The notes beneath the pieces were generated by a model. The model searched no databases. It saw nothing but the letters and a program-made list of their open reading frames with translations, and had not been told where the DNA came from. A program made the position numbers and the translations under genes. Positions 12,838-21,069 of a DNA stretch of 36,545 nucleotides are shown in pieces. This stretch comes from Sideroxydans sp. (lineage in GTDB: Bacteria; Pseudomonadota; Gammaproteobacteria; Burkholderiales; Gallionellaceae), in NCBI GenBank assembly GCA_011620315.1, contig WOZO01000002.1, positions 1 to 36,545 on the forward strand, given 5' to 3'. Position 1 is the first letter of the stretch; the number at the start of each line of letters is the position of its first letter.

Positions 12838-13896
12838 AGTCGATATACCACCCTGCCCGGTCAGATTGTCGAACGCGCCAGATTCAAAGCCAGCAACCGC
12901 CGCAATATCTCGTCATCACTCATCTCCGCCGTATAGTCCTCCCAGCCGTAAGCCTTGGCGACGGCGGCATCCAGCATTTTGTGGGCGTTGTCCAGCCAGG
13001 CTGGACGGGCGTTGTAGAGGTTGGTGAGGGTGCGCTTTTTCAGGTCGGCTTCATGGCCGAGTTTCGCGACGGGGCGTGCGGGGTAGCCTGATTTTTCTTC
13101 TTCGGGCGTGCGCACCCAGTCCGTCCATTCGGTCGGGTTGAGCCAGTTGTTGCGGAGTTCGTTCAGTTTCTGTGCGGCGGTAGCAATCTCTGCACTAACA
13201 GCAACGTTCGATAATTCCGGGAACGGGAAGGTCTCAAAAGTAGTGGTCGGCGTATAGCGCGGGTCATTGCCGACTCCATGCCAAGAACAAACAGCTAATG
13301 CCCATAGTTCATGGAAGCGAGAATGCAAGATTCCGAATGTCGTGTCATCGGATCGGGCAATGACGATCAACTTCTTGTCTGGCAACACGCTACCATCCAA
13401 CCAGACAAACACTCGGTGTTTGGAAACCTCAGGGGTCGCAATGTAGCGCGCCATGCCTTTGAGTGCTGCGCGCATTGCGATGCGAGGCTCTCCATGACGC
13501 CACCAATATTTGCGATAAGCCTCGCGATTGTTTTTCTCTCTTTCCGGCTTGACGTGTTGCACCACATACGCGAACGGCGTTTCGTACAACGCCGCATCGG
13601 CTTCGTTCATCGACGTGCCGTAATCGATGATCCAGCCATCGCGCGATCGGCGTGCCACATCCATCCCGTTCCATGAAGGCTTGAGCACTTCGCTGTTCGG
13701 CTTGCCGTTCGGGTTCGGCTGTTTGAGCCATTGCCGCGCAAGTTCGCCATCGATATCGAATGCACCTATCTTCTGCGAACCTTGAAAGCTAACTCCGGCA
13801 TTCTCTTTCAGTGGTTTTGCCTGAGTGAGATTCAGCCCTGCCCCTGCGGTAAGGTCGGCATGGATGGCGGCAACGGGCTGACCGTCAAGAACGCCA

Positions 13897-13979
13897 CCCT
13901 CACCCCCAGCCCCTCTCCCGGCGGGCGAGGGGAGTTGACCGCTTCCCTCTCCCGCCGGGAGAGGGATCGAGGGTGAGGG
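13897..13979. repeat. GC-rich palindromic repeat pair inside the restriction-modification gene
   Basis: Two adjacent hairpins built on CCCTCTCCC/GGGAGAGGG are enclosed by CCCTCACCC and GGGTGAGGG outer arms. It is a variant of the repeat family seen in hrpA. It is read in frame as about 29 Pro/Gly/Ser-rich residues between VSLVCFGKS and VLDGQPVAAI. Confidence 0.8.
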
Positions 13980-14348
13980 AGATTTGCCGAAACACACCAG
14001 CGACACACGCACCGCCGCGCCTTCGTTGATCCATTCTTCGTCGCTCCAGGCATTGAAGATCTTCGAGGTCTCGCAGATGCGAGAAAGCACATCCTGATTC
14101 GCACCACCGCGTATCGAATTGGTGGCGACCAAGCCCGCTCGCTGGCACTTGCCGGCTTCGATTTGCGCCCGCGCTTTCTCGAACCAGTAAGTGACAAGAT
14201 CTGCCCCGCCCGGCACGCGACCTTCATAGAGCTTGCGTAGCTTATCGGTGTATCGGTCGCCCAGTTCGCCTCGCATCTTGCTGCCACCAAGAAAAGGTGG
14301 ATTGCCGACGATGGCATCGACGGTGGGCCAAGCGGCTTCGCTTGTAAG

Positions 14349-14441
14349 CCCCTCTCCCGCCGGGGGAGGGGTTGGGGTGGGGGAACGCTCTTTCATTTCC
14401 GGCGCACCCCCTCCCTCAATCCCTCCCCCGAGGGGAGAGGG
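14349..14441. repeat. Inverted pair of GC-rich palindromic repeats inside the restriction-modification gene
   Basis: Two copies of the roughly 35-bp unit (CCCCTCTCCC...GGGGGAGGG...GGGGG) face each other at 14349-14383 and 14407-14441 with about 23 bp between. The whole is read in frame as about 35 residues (PSPLGGGIEGGG, SPTPTPPPAGEG) inserted 13 residues before the NPPF catalytic motif. Confidence 0.8.
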
Positions 14442-14570
14442 AAGCAACATCAGCGCATCGCGGTTCTCGATATGGTTGAGCGGTTGCAGGATGGGATCGC
14501 GGCGGATGGGGTAGCCGTTCTTGAGCATCCACTGTATCTCGCCGATCCACACGGTGACGCGCGCCAGTTC

Positions 14571-14577
14571 TGCTGGC
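14571..14577 (-). other. Frameshift site in the restriction-modification gene
   Basis: The coding strand reads TAT GCC A GCA GAA CTG. Removing one base joins ELNVYA to AELARV, the expected family sequence. Either a natural mutation or a sequencing error would look the same. Confidence 0.75.
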
Positions 14578-15932
14578 ATACACGTTGAGTTCGATGCCGT
14601 AGATGTTGGCGGGCGAGACTTCGATACTGACCTGGCGATGCAGGCCGAGCTGTTCGGCTTCGAGGTTGGCTTTGTGTTCCAGGTCTTTCAGTGCACGCAG
14701 GGCGAGGTATAGAAAGTTGCCGCTGCCGCAGGCGGGGTCTAGCACCTTGAAGTTCTTGAGCCGTTCCAGATAGGTGTAGAAAACAGCCTGTGCTTCGCGC
14801 TCTGCTTTATCGTTGTGCTTCTTGCTTTTGGCGAGATTCTTTTCGATCTGCACCTTCGCCGCTTGCCATTCCGCAGTCAGCGGCTCGACGATGACAGGAT
14901 CGATGATGCGCATGATGGAGAGTTGGTCGGTGTAGTGCGCACCGAGTTGTGAACGCTTCTTGGGATCAAGGCCCCGCTCGAACAGTGTGCCGAAGATGGA
15001 AGGTTCGATGCCGCTCCAGTCCAGCCGCGATGCCTCCAGCAGCGTCTGAATCTCTTGCGCTTCGAGCGGCAGCACTTCGGTCTTTTCAAACAGGCCGCCG
15101 TTAAAGTAGGCGATGTCTTCCAGCGCGAAGTCTCCGCCCTTGCGCATGGCGCGGAACAGTTCCTCGAAACGACTGCTGAGTTTGGCAGGATCGGTCTGGC
15201 TCTTATCGAGCAGGCGCTCGAACAATTTGCCGGGCAGCAGGCCCGCATCTTCCGCGAACAGGCAGAACAGACATTGGTTGAGGAAGTGCGCCACAGCCTG
15301 CGGCGCATGGCCGCGTGCATTCAGCGATTGCGCGAGGTCGGAGAACTTGCCTGCCGCTTCTTCGGTGATCTGCGAGATGGTGCGCTTGGGGTGGAACTTG
15401 TCCGGGTCGGTGAACAACCAGCGCAGCTTGTCTAGGTTGGCGGGTTCACTGATGTCCTGCAACGCGATGGTGTGCACTTCGCTGGGCGCGTTGGTGAAAT
15501 GAGTGTGTATCTGGATGATCTGCGTGTCGCACACCACCAGCAGCGGCGGATTGTCCAGCGCCAGCGCGTAAGTCATCAGTTGCTTGAGCGCGGCATCTAG
15601 ATTGCGGTCCGGCGCTTTGTATTCGATGGCGAAAAATCCGCGCTTCCAAACATCGGCCCAGCCATGCTTGCTACCGGTCTTGCTGACGCCGCGCTCGTAG
15701 CAATAGGTATCTACACTGGCAGGGCTGGGTATTTCGGCACCGACCAGCGCACACAGATCGGCGAAATGCGCCTGATAACTTTGTCGTTCGTTGAGTGTGC
15801 TGCCTTGCCACTTGGCTATGAATTCGCGCGGGGTCATTGTTTGCATCCGGTTAGAGTTGCCGAATCTTGCTGGAAAACATCGTGCGGAACAAGCACGCAG
15901 AATATATAGACATTCGTCTCCGGCTACGTTTC

Positions 15933-16054: not shown

Positions 16055-19000
16055 TCAGAGGCTTTCCAGAATCTTCTGCAAGCGCTTCGCCGACACGATC
16101 ACCGGCGTCTTCAGTTCCTGTGCGAACAGCGATACGCGCAGCTCCTGCATCATCCAGCCGAAGTCTTCCAGCCGTTCGTCGCGAGAGCCTTGCTGGGCTT
16201 GCAGGCGGCGTTGCCATTGCTGCTGCAAAGGCTGCAACTGCGCCAGATTCGTCGCGTCGCGCGCGGGGTTGCCGCGCAGCTTCTCCAGCCGCACGTTGAT
16301 GGCCTTCAGGTAGCGCGGCATGTGCTGCATGCGTTCGTAAGGGGTGCGGGCGACCCAGCCTTTGCCGAGCAGACTTTCCAGCTGCTGGCGGATGTCCTGT
16401 TGCGCCTGTCCATGTGCTTTGAATCCGGGCAGTGCTTTTTGCAGCGCCTGATGTTCGGTCAGCACCGTGCCGACCAGCCGCGCGATCTCCTGCCCCACCA
16501 GATTGAGGCGCGACTTGGCGTCCTTGCAGCGCGCATTGAAGGTCTTTTCGCTGTCCGGCAGCGGGGCGTTCAGACAGCAGCGGTCGAAGGTGATGCTGAG
16601 TATCTGTTGTTGCATCTCTTGCTGGCTGCCGAAGGGCAGGAACAGCATGACCATCTTCTGCAGGTCGGGCAGGTTCTTCTCCAGGAATTTCACCTGCTCT
16701 TTCAAAGCCAGCATGAACAGGCGGCGCAGCCCGGCGCGATGCACGGCCTGCGCTTCGTCGGCGGTATCGAAAGCTTGCAGCGTCACCGCATCGCCCTCGT
16801 CGTGCAGCGCGTTGAACACTGTCACCTGTTGACCGGCACGCGGCACTTGGGTGGTCTCGGCGAAGTCGCCGAAGGTCCATGATGTGTAGCGCTCCTTGTT
16901 GCTTGCGACTGCGGCCTGCGCCTGCTTCACCGGCGTACTGGCGGCCAGCGTCGCCTTGGGTGCCCACTCGCCGCGAAGTTGCAGGAAGTTGCGCCCCATA
17001 CCGAGCTGCCGCCCATGTTCGTCGATGACGCGGAAGTTCATCAGCAGATGCGGCGGCAGTTGTTCCAGACGGAAAGCATCCAGCGGCACATCGACTTGTT
17101 TCTGTTCGCGCATGTAGCGTGCGATGGCTTGCAACAGCGAGAGGTCGCTTGGCTTCACTTCGCTACAGAAAGCGGCGGCGAACTCTGGTACCGGCACGCA
17201 ATGACGGCGCAGTTTCTGCGGCAGCGACTTCAGCAGTTGCGCCACCTTCTCCGCCAATATGCCCGGCACCAGCCATTCACAACGCGCGGACTGCACCTGG
17301 TTGATGAGCGCCTGCGGCACGGTCAGCGTGACGCCGTCGTCGTTCTTGCCCGGCGCGAAGTTGTAGGCCAGCGCGTAGCTCACGTTGTTCATCTGCAACT
17401 GCGGCGGGAAGTGCTCGGTGGTGATGCCGGCCGCCTCGTGGCGCATCAGATCGTCTTTTTTCAGATACAGCAGTTTCGGATTTTCGCGCTCGGCTTCCTT
17501 GCGCCACTTCTCGAAATCCGCGCCGTTGTGCATGCCCTTGGGGATACGCGCATCGTAGAAGGCGAAGATGAGTTCGTCGTCCACCAGCACGTCGGGACGG
17601 CGCGATTTGTGTTCCAGCGCTTCGATGTCTGCGATGAGTTTCTGGTTGTGCGCAAAGAACGGTGCCTGCGTGTTGAACTCGCCTTCCACCAGTGCGGTGC
17701 GGATGAACACCGCGCGCGACTCTTCCGGGTCCATCGGCCCGTAGTGCACGCGCTTCTTCGGATTGATGAGCAAGCCGAACAGGGTGCTGCGTTCCCACGC
17801 GGCGACCTGCGCCGCTTTCTTCTCCCAGTGCGGATCGAAGTAGCTGCGTTTCAGCAGATGCGCACCGACCTCTTCCAGCCATTGCGGTTCGATGCGTGCC
17901 ACGCAGCGTGCATACAAACGCGTGGTCTCCATCAACTCCGCCGCAAGCACCCACTTCGCACCCTTCTTCGCCAGCACCGAATTGGGCGCGATGAAGAACT
18001 TGGTCTCGCGCGCGCCCAGGTAGTGCGGTTCGTTCACCGCACGCGTACCGATGTTGCCGATCAGACCGGTGAGTAGCGCCTTATGGATCTGCTCATAGCT
18101 TGCAGGCTGTTCGTTGAAGCGCATGTTCATCTCGGACATCTGCGCGTGCAGTTGCTGATGCAGCTCGTGCCACTCGCGCAGACGCAGCGGTGACAGGAAA
18201 TGACTGCGGCACTCGTTCGCCCACAACTTGTTGTTCTTCTTGTGCTGCACGCCCTTCTTGAACCAATCCCATAATTTGAGATAAGCGAGAAAATCCGAAC
18301 GCTCGTCGTTGAAGCGCTGGTGCGCGGCATCGGCCGCTTCGCGCCGCTCCGCAGGCCGGTCGCGCGGGTCTTGCAGCGACAAGGCGCTGGCGATGATGAC
18401 GATCTCGGTCAGACACTGGTATTGCTTGCCGGCGAGCAACAGGCGCGCGATCTTGGGATCGAGCGGCAGCTTGGCCAGTTCGTGACCGATGGGTGTCAGC
18501 GCTCTGCCCCCTCTCCCTCCGGGGGAGGGCTGGGGAGGGGGAACACTCTCGGATATCGCACCCAACTCTGTCAGCAACTGATAGCCGTCCGCGATCGCGC
18601 GCGAACCCGGCGGTTCGATGAAGGGGAAATCGGCCACATCGCCCAGACCCAGTGCGCTCATGCGCAGGATGACGGTGGCCAGCGAGACGCGGAATATCTC
18701 CGGATCGGTGAACTCGGCGCGCTGCGCGAATTCCTCTTCGTCGTACAAACGGATGCATATACCGCTCATCACACGACCGCAACGACCGGCTCGCTGGTTG
18801 GCGGCCGAGCGCGCGATCTTCTCGATATGCAACTGCTCCACCTTCTGGCGGATGCTGTAGCGGTTGATGCGCGCCACGCCGGTGTCGATCACGTAACCGA
18901 TGTTGGGCACGGTCAGAGAGGTCTCCGCCACATTGGTGGCCAGCACCACGCGGCGCTGGTTGCCGACCTTGAACACGCGGTCCTGCTCGACCGTGGACAG

Positions 19001-20416
19001 GCGCGAGAACAGCGGCAAGATCTCGATGCCTTTGTGCCGATGCTTGCGCAAGGCCTCGGCCGCTTCGCGTATCTCGCGTTCGCCGGGCAGGAACACCAGC
19101 ACGTCGCCGCGCAGCCCGCCGATGGAGAGTTCATCCAGCGCGGAACAGATGGCCTGCGGCACATCCTGCATCTCGCCTTCTTCGTCTTTTTGCGGCGGGC
19201 GGTAGCGAATCTCGACGGGGTAGGTGCGGCCGGAGACTTGGATGATGGGAGCGTTGGAAGATACTGATGCTGACGCAGACATCCCCTCTCCCTCCGGGGG
19301 ATTACCAGCGACTTGTCCGCTTGCGGGCTTAGTCGATTGGTTAGTAGTTCCACCAGGGTTAGGGAGGGGGCTCGCTATTAGTGCCTCAAAGATCCTTTGC
19401 AGAACCCCTTCCGTATTCGTCAGTGCTTCGTTATTCCAGAAGCGCAGGACTGTGATGCCTTGCGCTTGCAACCACGCGCTACGCACTTCGTCATGATCAA
19501 GTTGCGCCCCCTCTGCATGCTGACCGCCATCCAATTCGATTGCCAGTTTTGCCTGATGACAATAGAAATCGAGAATATATGCACCCGATGAGTGCTGCCG
19601 ACGGAAGCCAAAGCCATGCATTTGATTCCTGCGTAGCAATTGCCAAAGCAGATTCTCGGCATCGGTTGCATTCTTGCGCAGGAGTCTGGCATGGGTGAGC
19701 AACGTTTCCGGAAGTGCGGCGTGAGGCTCAAGCCTCTCCCCCTCCCTATCCCTCCCCCGTTGGGAGAGGGGACTGGATCGCGAAGCATCATCATGCCCCT
19801 CTCCCACCGGGGGAGGGGTTGGGGAGGGGGAACCCGCCGCGAAGTGCTTCGCAAACCTGTCCGCATCCAGCGTAGCGGAAGTGATGATCAGCTTCAGGTC
19901 GGGCCGCTTGCGTAGCAACTGCTTGAAGTAGCCAAGTAGGAAGTCGATGTTCAGCGAACGCTCGTGCGCTTCGTCGATGATCAGCGTGTCGTATTGCTTC
20001 AACAGCGGATCGTGATGGATCTCGGCCAGCAAGATGCCGTCGGTCATCAGTTTGATGGCGGAATCGGGCGACACCTTGTCGTTGAAGCGCACCTTGTAGC
20101 CGACCAGTCCGCCCAGTTCGCTCTTCAGTTCCTGCGCGATGCGTGCGGCGACCGAACGTGCCGCCACGCGGCGCGGTTGCGTGTGACCGATGACGCCATG
20201 CACGCCGCGCCCGATGCTCAGACATATCTTGGGCAGTTGCGTGGTCTTGCCGGAGCCGGTCTCGCCGCAAACGATGATCACCTGATGTCTTTCGATCGCC
20301 TGCGCCAACTCGTCACGCCGTGCCACCACCGGCAAGTCGGCGGGATATTCGATCGCAGTGAGTTGCTGGATGCGCGCTAGACGGCGCTGGGCGATAGCGG
20401 ACAGTTGCTGCGTCAT
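16055..20416 (-). CDS. hrpA: ATP-dependent RNA helicase HrpA with in-frame DUF559 nuclease-like insertion
   Basis: HrpA is a DEAH-box RNA helicase linked to mRNA processing and ribosome rescue. The ATG at 20416 overlaps the upstream nuclease stop (ATGA) and gives 1453 aa; the track start is nine codons earlier. Walker A GETGSGKTT is at about residues 51-59, DEAH at 148-151 and SAT at 180-182. Later blocks include VLVFLPGEREI, ATNVAETSLT and QRAGRCGR, then the long HrpA C-terminal region, so the helicase core is complete. After KHFAAG the normal sequence resumes at NAPIIQVSGRTYPVEIRYRP only 193 residues later. The insert (about 196-388) carries Pro/Gly-rich repeat translations and a DUF559 domain. 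A second 12-15 residue repeat insertion (VPPPQPSPGGRG) sits further on. Without these the length matches ordinary HrpA. Confidence 0.93.
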   Translation of the reverse strand: MTQQLSAIAQRRLARIQQLTAIEYPADLPVVARRDELAQAIERHQVIIVCGETGSGKTTQLPKICLSIGRGVHGVIGHTQPRRVAARSVAARIAQELKSELGGLVGYKVRFNDKVSPDSAIKLMTDGILLAEIHHDPLLKQYDTLIIDEAHERSLNIDFLLGYFKQLLRKRPDLKLIITSATLDADRFAKHFAAGSPSPTPPPVGEGHDDASRSSPLSQRGRDREGERLEPHAALPETLLTHARLLRKNATDAENLLWQLLRRNQMHGFGFRRQHSSGAYILDFYCHQAKLAIELDGGQHAEGAQLDHDEVRSAWLQAQGITVLRFWNNEALTNTEGVLQRIFEALIASPLPNPGGTTNQSTKPASGQVAGNPPEGEGMSASASVSSNAPIIQVSGRTYPVEIRYRPPQKDEEGEMQDVPQAICSALDELSIGGLRGDVLVFLPGEREIREAAEALRKHRHKGIEILPLFSRLSTVEQDRVFKVGNQRRVVLATNVAETSLTVPNIGYVIDTGVARINRYSIRQKVEQLHIEKIARSAANQRAGRCGRVMSGICIRLYDEEEFAQRAEFTDPEIFRVSLATVILRMSALGLGDVADFPFIEPPGSRAIADGYQLLTELGAISESVPPPQPSPGGRGGRALTPIGHELAKLPLDPKIARLLLAGKQYQCLTEIVIIASALSLQDPRDRPAERREAADAAHQRFNDERSDFLAYLKLWDWFKKGVQHKKNNKLWANECRSHFLSPLRLREWHELHQQLHAQMSEMNMRFNEQPASYEQIHKALLTGLIGNIGTRAVNEPHYLGARETKFFIAPNSVLAKKGAKWVLAAELMETTRLYARCVARIEPQWLEEVGAHLLKRSYFDPHWEKKAAQVAAWERSTLFGLLINPKKRVHYGPMDPEESRAVFIRTALVEGEFNTQAPFFAHNQKLIADIEALEHKSRRPDVLVDDELIFAFYDARIPKGMHNGADFEKWRKEAERENPKLLYLKKDDLMRHEAAGITTEHFPPQLQMNNVSYALAYNFAPGKNDDGVTLTVPQALINQVQSARCEWLVPGILAEKVAQLLKSLPQKLRRHCVPVPEFAAAFCSEVKPSDLSLLQAIARYMREQKQVDVPLDAFRLEQLPPHLLMNFRVIDEHGRQLGMGRNFLQLRGEWAPKATLAASTPVKQAQAAVASNKERYTSWTFGDFAETTQVPRAGQQVTVFNALHDEGDAVTLQAFDTADEAQAVHRAGLRRLFMLALKEQVKFLEKNLPDLQKMVMLFLPFGSQQEMQQQILSITFDRCCLNAPLPDSEKTFNARCKDAKSRLNLVGQEIARLVGTVLTEHQALQKALPGFKAHGQAQQDIRQQLESLLGKGWVARTPYERMQHMPRYLKAINVRLEKLRGNPARDATNLAQLQPLQQQWQRRLQAQQGSRDERLEDFGWMMQELRVSLFAQELKTPVIVSAKRLQKILESL
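18507..18541. repeat. GC-rich palindromic repeat, single copy in hrpA
   Basis: One roughly 35-bp unit is read in frame as PPPQPSPGGRGG between the GAISES and ALTPIGHELAKLP segments of HrpA. Its sequence matches the units flanking the DUF559 insert. Confidence 0.8.
19283..19370. repeat. GC-rich palindromic repeat split by a 54-nt palindromic insert
   Basis: The outer parts CCCCTCTCCCTCCGGGGG (from 19283) and AGGGTTAGGGAGGGGG (to 19370) rejoin into a normal roughly 35-bp unit when 19301-19354 is removed. Confidence 0.75.
19304..19341. repeat. Nested 38-bp imperfect palindrome
   Basis: This segment starts ACCAGCGACT and ends AGTCGATTGGT, with CCGC/GCGG at its centre, so it folds on itself with few mismatches. 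It lies within the 54-nt insertion that splits a repeat unit. Confidence 0.7.
19367..19732 (-). other. DUF559 (Vsr/PD-(D/E)XK-like) domain within HrpA
   Basis: This domain covers about 120 residues of the hrpA frame. It reads ARLLRKNATDAENLLWQLLR, GFGFRRQHSSGAYILDFYC, KLAIELDGGQHAEG, DEVRSAWLQAQGITVLRFWNNE and ends VLQRIFEAL. These are the consecutive blocks of stand-alone DUF559 proteins, which resemble Vsr and other PD-(D/E)XK nucleases. Candidate catalytic residues are the Asp of LDFYC and the Glu/Asp of IELDG, both present. It has no start or ribosome binding site of its own, so it appears only as part of HrpA unless cleaved. Confidence 0.88.
19738..19830. repeat. Inverted pair of GC-rich palindromic repeats flanking the DUF559 segment
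   Basis: Two facing units at 19738-19771 and 19796-19830 are separated by 24 bp. The arrangement is the same as the pair at 14349-14441. They are read in frame as SPSPTPPPVGEG and SPLSQRGRDREGE. Confidence 0.8.
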
Positions 20417-21069
20417 GGCTGCTCCACACACAAGCTGGTGCAAGGGATGCCGTCACCATCGGTATCAAGCGTCTTCACACCGCAACGTGTCAGATAGAAA
20501 TGCGCTTCGTCGCACGACTGCATCTGTTCGCAACGCGACTTCTTGCCGCAGGCCAGATCATAGGGCTCGAAGACTGCGCGGGATTTTGCTGCCGTGTGTT
20601 GTTTGTAATATGAAGGATGTCGCTTGCGCCACTCCCATGGTGCTTGCGCACTGGTTTGTGCCCACAGTCCACGGTGCGCTTGCTGCGCCTCGAGTTGCAA
20701 TGTGATGAATGCCTTATTGCTGTGATGGAAAGAATATTCCCAAGCCATGCCCTGACGCACCAGCTCTTGATTCAGATCGCCACCATCCAACGTGATCGTG
20801 GCGACGGTGCGACCGTATTGATCGATGGCCCGACTCTCTACTTGCACCCTCTTCTTGTTCACGCGGGACTTTAGATATTCAGAAGATCGCTGGCCGAACG
20901 GCTGCGCCTTTTCCGGTGCATCGATATCGGCCAAGCGTAATTTGAGTCTTTGCTTATCGCGCAGCACCAGCACGGTGTCACCATCGATGACCGCGATCAC
21001 ATACGCTTCGAACGTCTCCGCCTGCGCCGCCCAACTCAGGCAACACAAAAGAACCCACCACCACTTCAT
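20413..21069 (-). CDS. Secreted thermonuclease (SNase family) with Excalibur-like C-terminus
   Basis: This is a staphylococcal-nuclease-like DNA/RNA hydrolase. The ATG at 21069 overlaps the pgpA stop (ATGA) and starts a signal peptide (MKWWWVLLCCLSWAAQA), so the 94 extra residues in the track ORF are spurious. The SNase core has LRLADIDAPE, containing the catalytic Arg, Asp and Glu, and QYGRTVA with the second Arg. The C-terminal 50 residues contain CDEAHFYLTRCG and LDTDGDGIPC, the DxDxDG loop of Excalibur calcium-binding domains. The mature protein is probably periplasmic or secreted. It overlaps hrpA by 4 bp. Confidence 0.88.
   Translation of the reverse strand: MKWWWVLLCCLSWAAQAETFEAYVIAVIDGDTVLVLRDKQRLKLRLADIDAPEKAQPFGQRSSEYLKSRVNKKRVQVESRAIDQYGRTVATITLDGGDLNQELVRQGMAWEYSFHHSNKAFITLQLEAQQAHRGLWAQTSAQAPWEWRKRHPSYYKQHTAAKSRAVFEPYDLACGKKSRCEQMQSCDEAHFYLTRCGVKTLDTDGDGIPCTSLCVEQP

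Follow-up and report, generated by a model that had tools for sequence, protein, structure and literature searches.

The hrpA gene carried by the window (the whole 36,545 nt stretch of a Sideroxydans sp. contig that was analysed) raises the question of how a nuclease domain has come to lie, in frame, inside an RNA helicase. We propose that the insert is likely to represent a single copy of a homing-like, selfish element that is not spliced out, composed of a DUF559 gene between inverted triplex-motif (TM) repeats. The combination of nuclease and repeat is very probably a horizontally spreading element; that its own nuclease drives this spread is a reading we prefer only by a small margin; it is inferred, and neither cleavage nor transposition has been shown. 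The repeat has long been known and has remained unexplained, and the DUF559–TM repeat unit has the look of a mobile genetic element of a kind so far overlooked.

The hrpA frame contains no internal stops and matches the TIGR01967 HrpA profile on both sides of the insert (Table 1). The same HrpA anchors are 612 nt apart in this gene versus 30 nt in scarless empty homologues, and insertion in frame and without a scar is shown by these sequences. The PF04480 profile matches the embedded domain with an E-value of 1.4e-35 (121.9 bits, the curated cut-off being 20.6), and the active-site residues, D in ILDFYC and E and D in ELDGGQH, are all intact; membership of the DUF559 family is established by this score and the PD-(D/E)XK residues, and nuclease activity is inferred. 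It is the only DUF559 found genome-wide, in an assembly that is fragmented and MAG-like (233 contigs). Searches of Pfam and NCBIfam detected no intein family in HrpA at E<=0.01, and for want of a protein-splicing (Hint) domain in this search an intein was rejected; a group I or II intron was likewise rejected, there being no Rfam intron family and only sub-threshold hits to low-complexity hairpins. No target-site duplication was recognised at the hrpA site. Modelled on its own, the DUF559 domain is predicted to fold with a pLDDT of ~95 and disordered repeat-encoded flanks, and the prediction that the insert loops out of HrpA rests on this domain-only model alone; an AlphaFold model of the helicase core with the insert reached a pLDDT of 55, the alignment being too thin. 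The closest solved structures to the domain model are NGO0050 (target TM-score 0.86) and the homing endonuclease I-Bth0305I (0.81), the latter being the closest of known activity.

Table 1. Features of the hrpA region and neighbouring repeat copies (window coordinates)
Feature	Coordinates	Strand	Remarks
hrpA reading frame	16055..20443	-	1462 aa (longest start); ATP-dependent RNA helicase HrpA; contains the insert
In-frame insert	19253..19834	-	~194 codons; consists of DUF559 and linkers encoded by the repeats; close relatives lack it and show no scar
DUF559 (PF04480) PD-(D/E)XK nuclease domain	19379..19699	-	aa 249-355; catalytic D/E/D intact
TM repeat, first copy of 5' (hrpA-sense) pair	19796..19830		
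TM repeat, second copy of 5' pair	19738..19771		Inverted relative to first copy; tail towards DUF559
TM repeat, 3' side of DUF559	19283..19371		Hairpin 19283-19301, tail 19355-19371; split by nested dispersed repeat 19302-19354
Solo TM repeat in hrpA, without DUF559	18506..18541		In frame; ESVPPPQPSPGGRGG
Inverted TM pair without DUF559, neighbouring MmeI-like methyltransferase	14349..14441		Site where relatives L115 and L118 hold DUF559
Second inverted TM pair without DUF559, same MmeI-like methyltransferase frame	13895..13981		

The repeats that flank DUF559 (e.g. left, AGCCCCTCGCCCTCTGGGAGAGGGGTTGGGGTGAGGG; right, its reverse complement) have the hairpin outside and the purine tail towards the nuclease, and this composite anatomy is seen directly. 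The window repeat satisfies the TM motif criterion of a CCCTCNCCC/GGGNGAGGG hairpin followed by a purine mirror tail, triplex folding being inferred; folding of the repeats as DNA secondary structure was uninformative against shuffles. This G/C-rich intrastrand-triplex motif, TM or TMECO, has been reported from over 260 genomes, among them E. coli, whose strain MG1655 has 23 listed copies, and the authors never found the activities that provide its mobility (Holder et al. 2015; PMC4666352). There are 100 such palindromes in Enterobacter sp. 638 (PMC2869309). Five or six of the six reading frames of the repeat are stop-free, from which we infer that insertion in any frame tends to give a linker. 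The dispersed repeat nested in the loop of the 3' copy (core CGACTAAGCCCGCAAGCGG) is present in 0-10 copies per genome in the genus and is also nested within the HrpA inserts of L032 and L065. We note that the MmeI-like methyltransferase (12861-15846, minus strand) occupies two overlapping frames with an apparent frameshift at ~14416-14579 and two in-frame repeat pairs.

An earlier note on this locus, made without database searches, had claimed an in-frame DUF559 insert in HrpA with intact catalytic residues, and this held on the evidence of the open frame, the profiles and the residues; its estimate of ~193 codons is close to the 194 obtained by comparison with empty homologues. Its claim that palindromic repeats bracket the insert and recur elsewhere without DUF559 also held, with 20 strict palindromes genome-wide versus 0 for a reversed control pattern. 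The note requires correction in that one bracketing copy is split by the nested dispersed repeat, and the solo copy within HrpA is an addition to it. Fold modelling, which it had suggested as a check, gave a well-folded domain with disordered flanks, as far as the domain-only model goes.

In relatives the HrpA site is either empty (SKHFSGAPVL, with no scar), filled by DUF559 between repeats, or occupied by the repeat only (L040, L041). Ten genomes or species of the genus, nine besides the source, are filled at this same site, and filled alleles are present in the single-contig genomes G024 and G029. Five congeners whose HrpA C-terminal parts are 94-95% identical lack the insert, and the site is empty in the genomes examined from other families of the order; because close congeners and these families are empty, the insert was gained. 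Filled alleles are scattered among empty neighbours in the HrpA tree, some with good support (L052/L056, 100; L034/L051, 97), and the DUF559 tree is discordant with it; this patchy, tree-discordant distribution is shown. Over ~18 codons on each side of the site, alleles are more alike within the filled or the empty class than across classes, and the similarity is found at synonymous sites also (these two windows rank highest, with D=0.055 and 0.041; p=0.0002 by permutation of labels), although the permutation corrects only incompletely for phylogeny and relatedness. A distant window ~230 codons downstream, at the solo repeat, is also conspicuous if every site is included, though not at synonymous sites alone, and this signal is likely to come from gapped alignment. 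For the same genome pairs, where estimable, synonymous divergence is greater in DUF559 than in HrpA. With dN/dS values of 0.04-0.10, the nuclease domain is under purifying selection. Two criteria of homing are thus present, namely empty cognate alleles in relatives and spread between alleles independently of host phylogeny; cleavage of the empty allele is inferred. L053 has an unrelated in-frame palindrome pair (GTAGGAGCGAGCTTGCTCGCGA...) at the same position in HrpA, which we take to be similar to a Pseudomonas-type REP pair. It is possible that this first HrpA site is a hot spot or a permissive loop.

The occurrence of DUF559 within many hosts is likewise directly demonstrated. In-frame copies were found in HrpA (at two sites, the second in L116, L117 and L119), MetG, MetH, ValS, IleS, PriA (two lineages), TrpC and IspE, and further in an AsnB-type amidotransferase, HsdM and MmeI-type methylases, and DUF559 is fused to SdhE and to MeaB; the hosts were confirmed by curated models, except that HsdS (L138, L169) was assigned by eye. 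They belong to Proteobacteria, Chloroflexi, Cyanobacteria and others. A survey of MetG found five filled genomes, and in the best-matching unfilled genomes that were read out the linker is uninterrupted, except in L244, which has the repeat only. In the window's MmeI-like methyltransferase a repeat pair lies exactly at the position of DUF559 in L115. Catalytic residues are retained in 72/74 embedded and 82/83 standalone copies. In the nuclease tree the HrpA-site copies form one clade (0.994), within which those of the second HrpA site are nested, and the MetG copies form a separate clade (0.956). Relatives were found in only 2/50,697 phage records and 44/72,556 plasmid records, and a phage or plasmid vehicle was rejected on account of this scarcity. 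A Rickettsiales contig (L150) carries DUF559 in frame within ValS. At L281 (~1400-2000), ~60 bp of the 5' end of the downstream gene is present on both sides of the DUF559 unit, as if a long target had been duplicated on insertion.

The association of nuclease and repeat extends across phyla, as is shown by the positions of repeat half-sites: these lie within 300 bp on both sides of DUF559 at 48/76 cross-phylum loci versus 0.3% of control positions, and on either side at 62/76 versus 9.5%. This association is specific to DUF559: Vsr nuclease loci of the same order have half-sites on both sides in 0/30 cases and on either side in 2/30. A phylum-wide DUF559 sample, ranked by Pfam score, gave 13/30 (controls 0%) and 21/30 (controls 11%) respectively. 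The sets of loci are weighted towards high scorers and most of the genomes are MAGs. Across 120 genomes of the family, the median number of repeat palindromes is 16 with DUF559 versus 1 without (p=3.6e-9), and nuclease similarity is correlated with hairpin similarity across loci (Mantel r=0.34, p=0.0002). In some genomes the repeat occurs but no DUF559 was detected (8 copies in G104 and 7 in G106, both 99% complete), others have DUF559 without a strict repeat (G094, G116, G143), and solo repeats are far more numerous than nucleases. In E. coli, TMECO no. 9 lies ~170 bp from the DUF559 gene ycjD, which is present in 3366/5426 genomes. In the MG1655 segment 1349000-1354000 (L210), ycjD adjoins TM repeats. 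A recent jump of ycjD within E. coli allowed no clean test, as its absence coincides with eefRABCD (PMC12817139). Neither the embedding of DUF559 in host proteins nor its link with the repeat was found in the literature searched (mainly titles and abstracts).

These comparisons bear on the remaining claims of the earlier note. Empty-site relatives of HrpA, which it proposed to seek, are common, and the repeat flanks DUF559 elsewhere far above controls, including inside unrelated proteins, where the Pro/Gly-rich linkers it predicted are indeed encoded. Its inference of homing-like mobility fits the patchy distribution, the discordant trees and the shared short flanks; that the nuclease is the driver was an inference then and remains one.

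The element would enter host reading frames at loops or linkers and stay unspliced, the absence of splicing or processing being inferred. Translation would yield one fused protein in which the repeats supply disordered Pro/Gly-rich linkers, leaving nuclease and host to fold separately. Within one host gene it may spread between species in the manner of a homing endonuclease, an empty allele or a repeat being cut and repair by recombination then copying the element into place. Moves into a new host gene would be rare and spread within a host gene common, an inference drawn from the single clade of HrpA-site nucleases and the nesting of the second site. Solo repeats and repeat pairs may be remnants, non-autonomous copies or landing sites, and in needed genes only sense, in-frame DUF559 copies would be expected to survive. 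Against this, the empty hrpA site is unlike the repeat, and the first entry is unexplained.

The rival that must be taken most seriously makes DUF559 a passenger: other machinery (a RAYT-type enzyme, an IS transposase acting in trans, or ordinary homologous recombination) would move both it and the repeat, and its own role would lie elsewhere, e.g. in Vsr-like repair, restriction or methylase stabilisation. This is possible. In its support stands genome G101, where six related copies (L274, L275, L277-L280) of a ~530-bp MITE-like element with terminal inverted repeats GGYTCTATGTGA... contain TM repeats plus DUF559 as if it were cargo, and one copy (L277) has an apparent 8-bp target duplication, AAGATGTC, features that point to another transposase. 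The excess of solo repeats, the many methylases and restriction subunits among the hosts, and three Y1_Tnp matches in the source genome (one of them a fragment on C40, with a weak TM match ~150 bp away) also favour it. However, repeat copy number tracks the presence of DUF559, the repeat is associated with DUF559 and not Vsr, nearly all embedded copies retain the catalytic site, and nuclease and repeat types co-vary.

A functional fusion, in which HrpA recruited the nuclease and kept it as a help to the helicase, is unlikely. Strong purifying selection on the domain and the ten species filled at one site speak for it, but the unit is present in many unrelated proteins, for which reason we rejected it as the main reading; moreover, most congeners lack the insert, a different second HrpA site is used, and in relatives the same site may hold the repeat alone or an unrelated palindrome. 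We consider even less likely a single ancient hrpA insertion that was inherited vertically and lost many times; the one clade of HrpA-site nucleases would agree with it, yet the other families of the order are empty, empty alleles have no scar, the nuclease and HrpA trees disagree, the nuclease has the higher synonymous divergence, and flanks are shared locally. An assembly artefact, for which the 233 MAG-like contigs might be cited, or a dead insertion can be all but dismissed: single-contig genomes are also filled, the frame is open, the active site is intact and dN/dS is low.

DUF559 is now a concrete candidate mobility enzyme for TM repeats, testable in laboratory E. coli. If the reading as a nuclease-bearing mobile element is correct, a homing-type nuclease can persist unspliced in essential proteins such as tRNA synthetases, because its terminal repeats also serve to encode linkers. 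We caution that in many annotated bacterial proteins unusual domain fusions and inserts rich in Pro/Gly may be scars of mobile elements and not functional architecture. A bolder reading, of a pan-bacterial class of mobile elements in which a PD-(D/E)XK nuclease recognises triplex-forming repeats and invades ORFs as unspliced fusions, is one on which we find the evidence evenly poised; it would answer what mobilises triplex repeats, including those of E. coli.

The insert resembles inteins with homing endonucleases in being an in-frame nuclease within conserved housekeeping proteins whose relatives have empty alleles, but it lacks a Hint domain, and its boundaries are repeat-encoded Pro/Gly linkers placed in linkers and loops. 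I-Bth0305I (PDB 3r3p), with its Vsr/PD-(D/E)XK-like catalytic domain, matches in fold (E=6e-5, target TM 0.81) and is likewise a nuclease encoded inside another gene with patchy alleles. It is encoded in a self-splicing intron, whereas the DUF559 unit has neither intron nor intein and is inferred to be made as a single fused protein with its host. Rickettsia palindromic elements (Ogata et al. 2000; PMC10969869) are also palindromic repeats translated in frame in unrelated genes, but are ~150 bp, of other sequence, with no nuclease reported, and were described in Rickettsia; the present insert does not fit that description, being 582 bp long, carrying DUF559 and coming from a betaproteobacterium related to Sideroxydans/Gallionella. 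REP/REPIN sequences with RAYT are similar in that the palindromes are short, frequently form inverted pairs and lie close to a single-domain nuclease. However, RAYT belongs to the Y1 HUH enzymes and REPs carry GTAG/CGTC tags, whereas DUF559 is a PD-(D/E)XK enzyme with a polypurine/polypyrimidine repeat, and the repeat is far more strongly associated with DUF559 than with Y1_Tnp. The DUF559/YcjD family (PF04480, PRK09767; Caulobacter VsrA) shares the domain and active site, although its known members are described as standalone Vsr-like proteins; VsrA triggers the SOS response in Caulobacter cells devoid of ScmA methylase (PMC12907096), which is indirect evidence on nuclease activity. The TM/TMECO repeats (PMC4666352) have the same hairpin and mirror tail, e.g. 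CCCTCTCCC..GGGAGAGGG..GGGGTGAGGG, but that study reported only intergenic copies in E. coli and no mobility gene, whereas in the present cases DUF559 is bracketed by the repeat, which occurs within ORFs.
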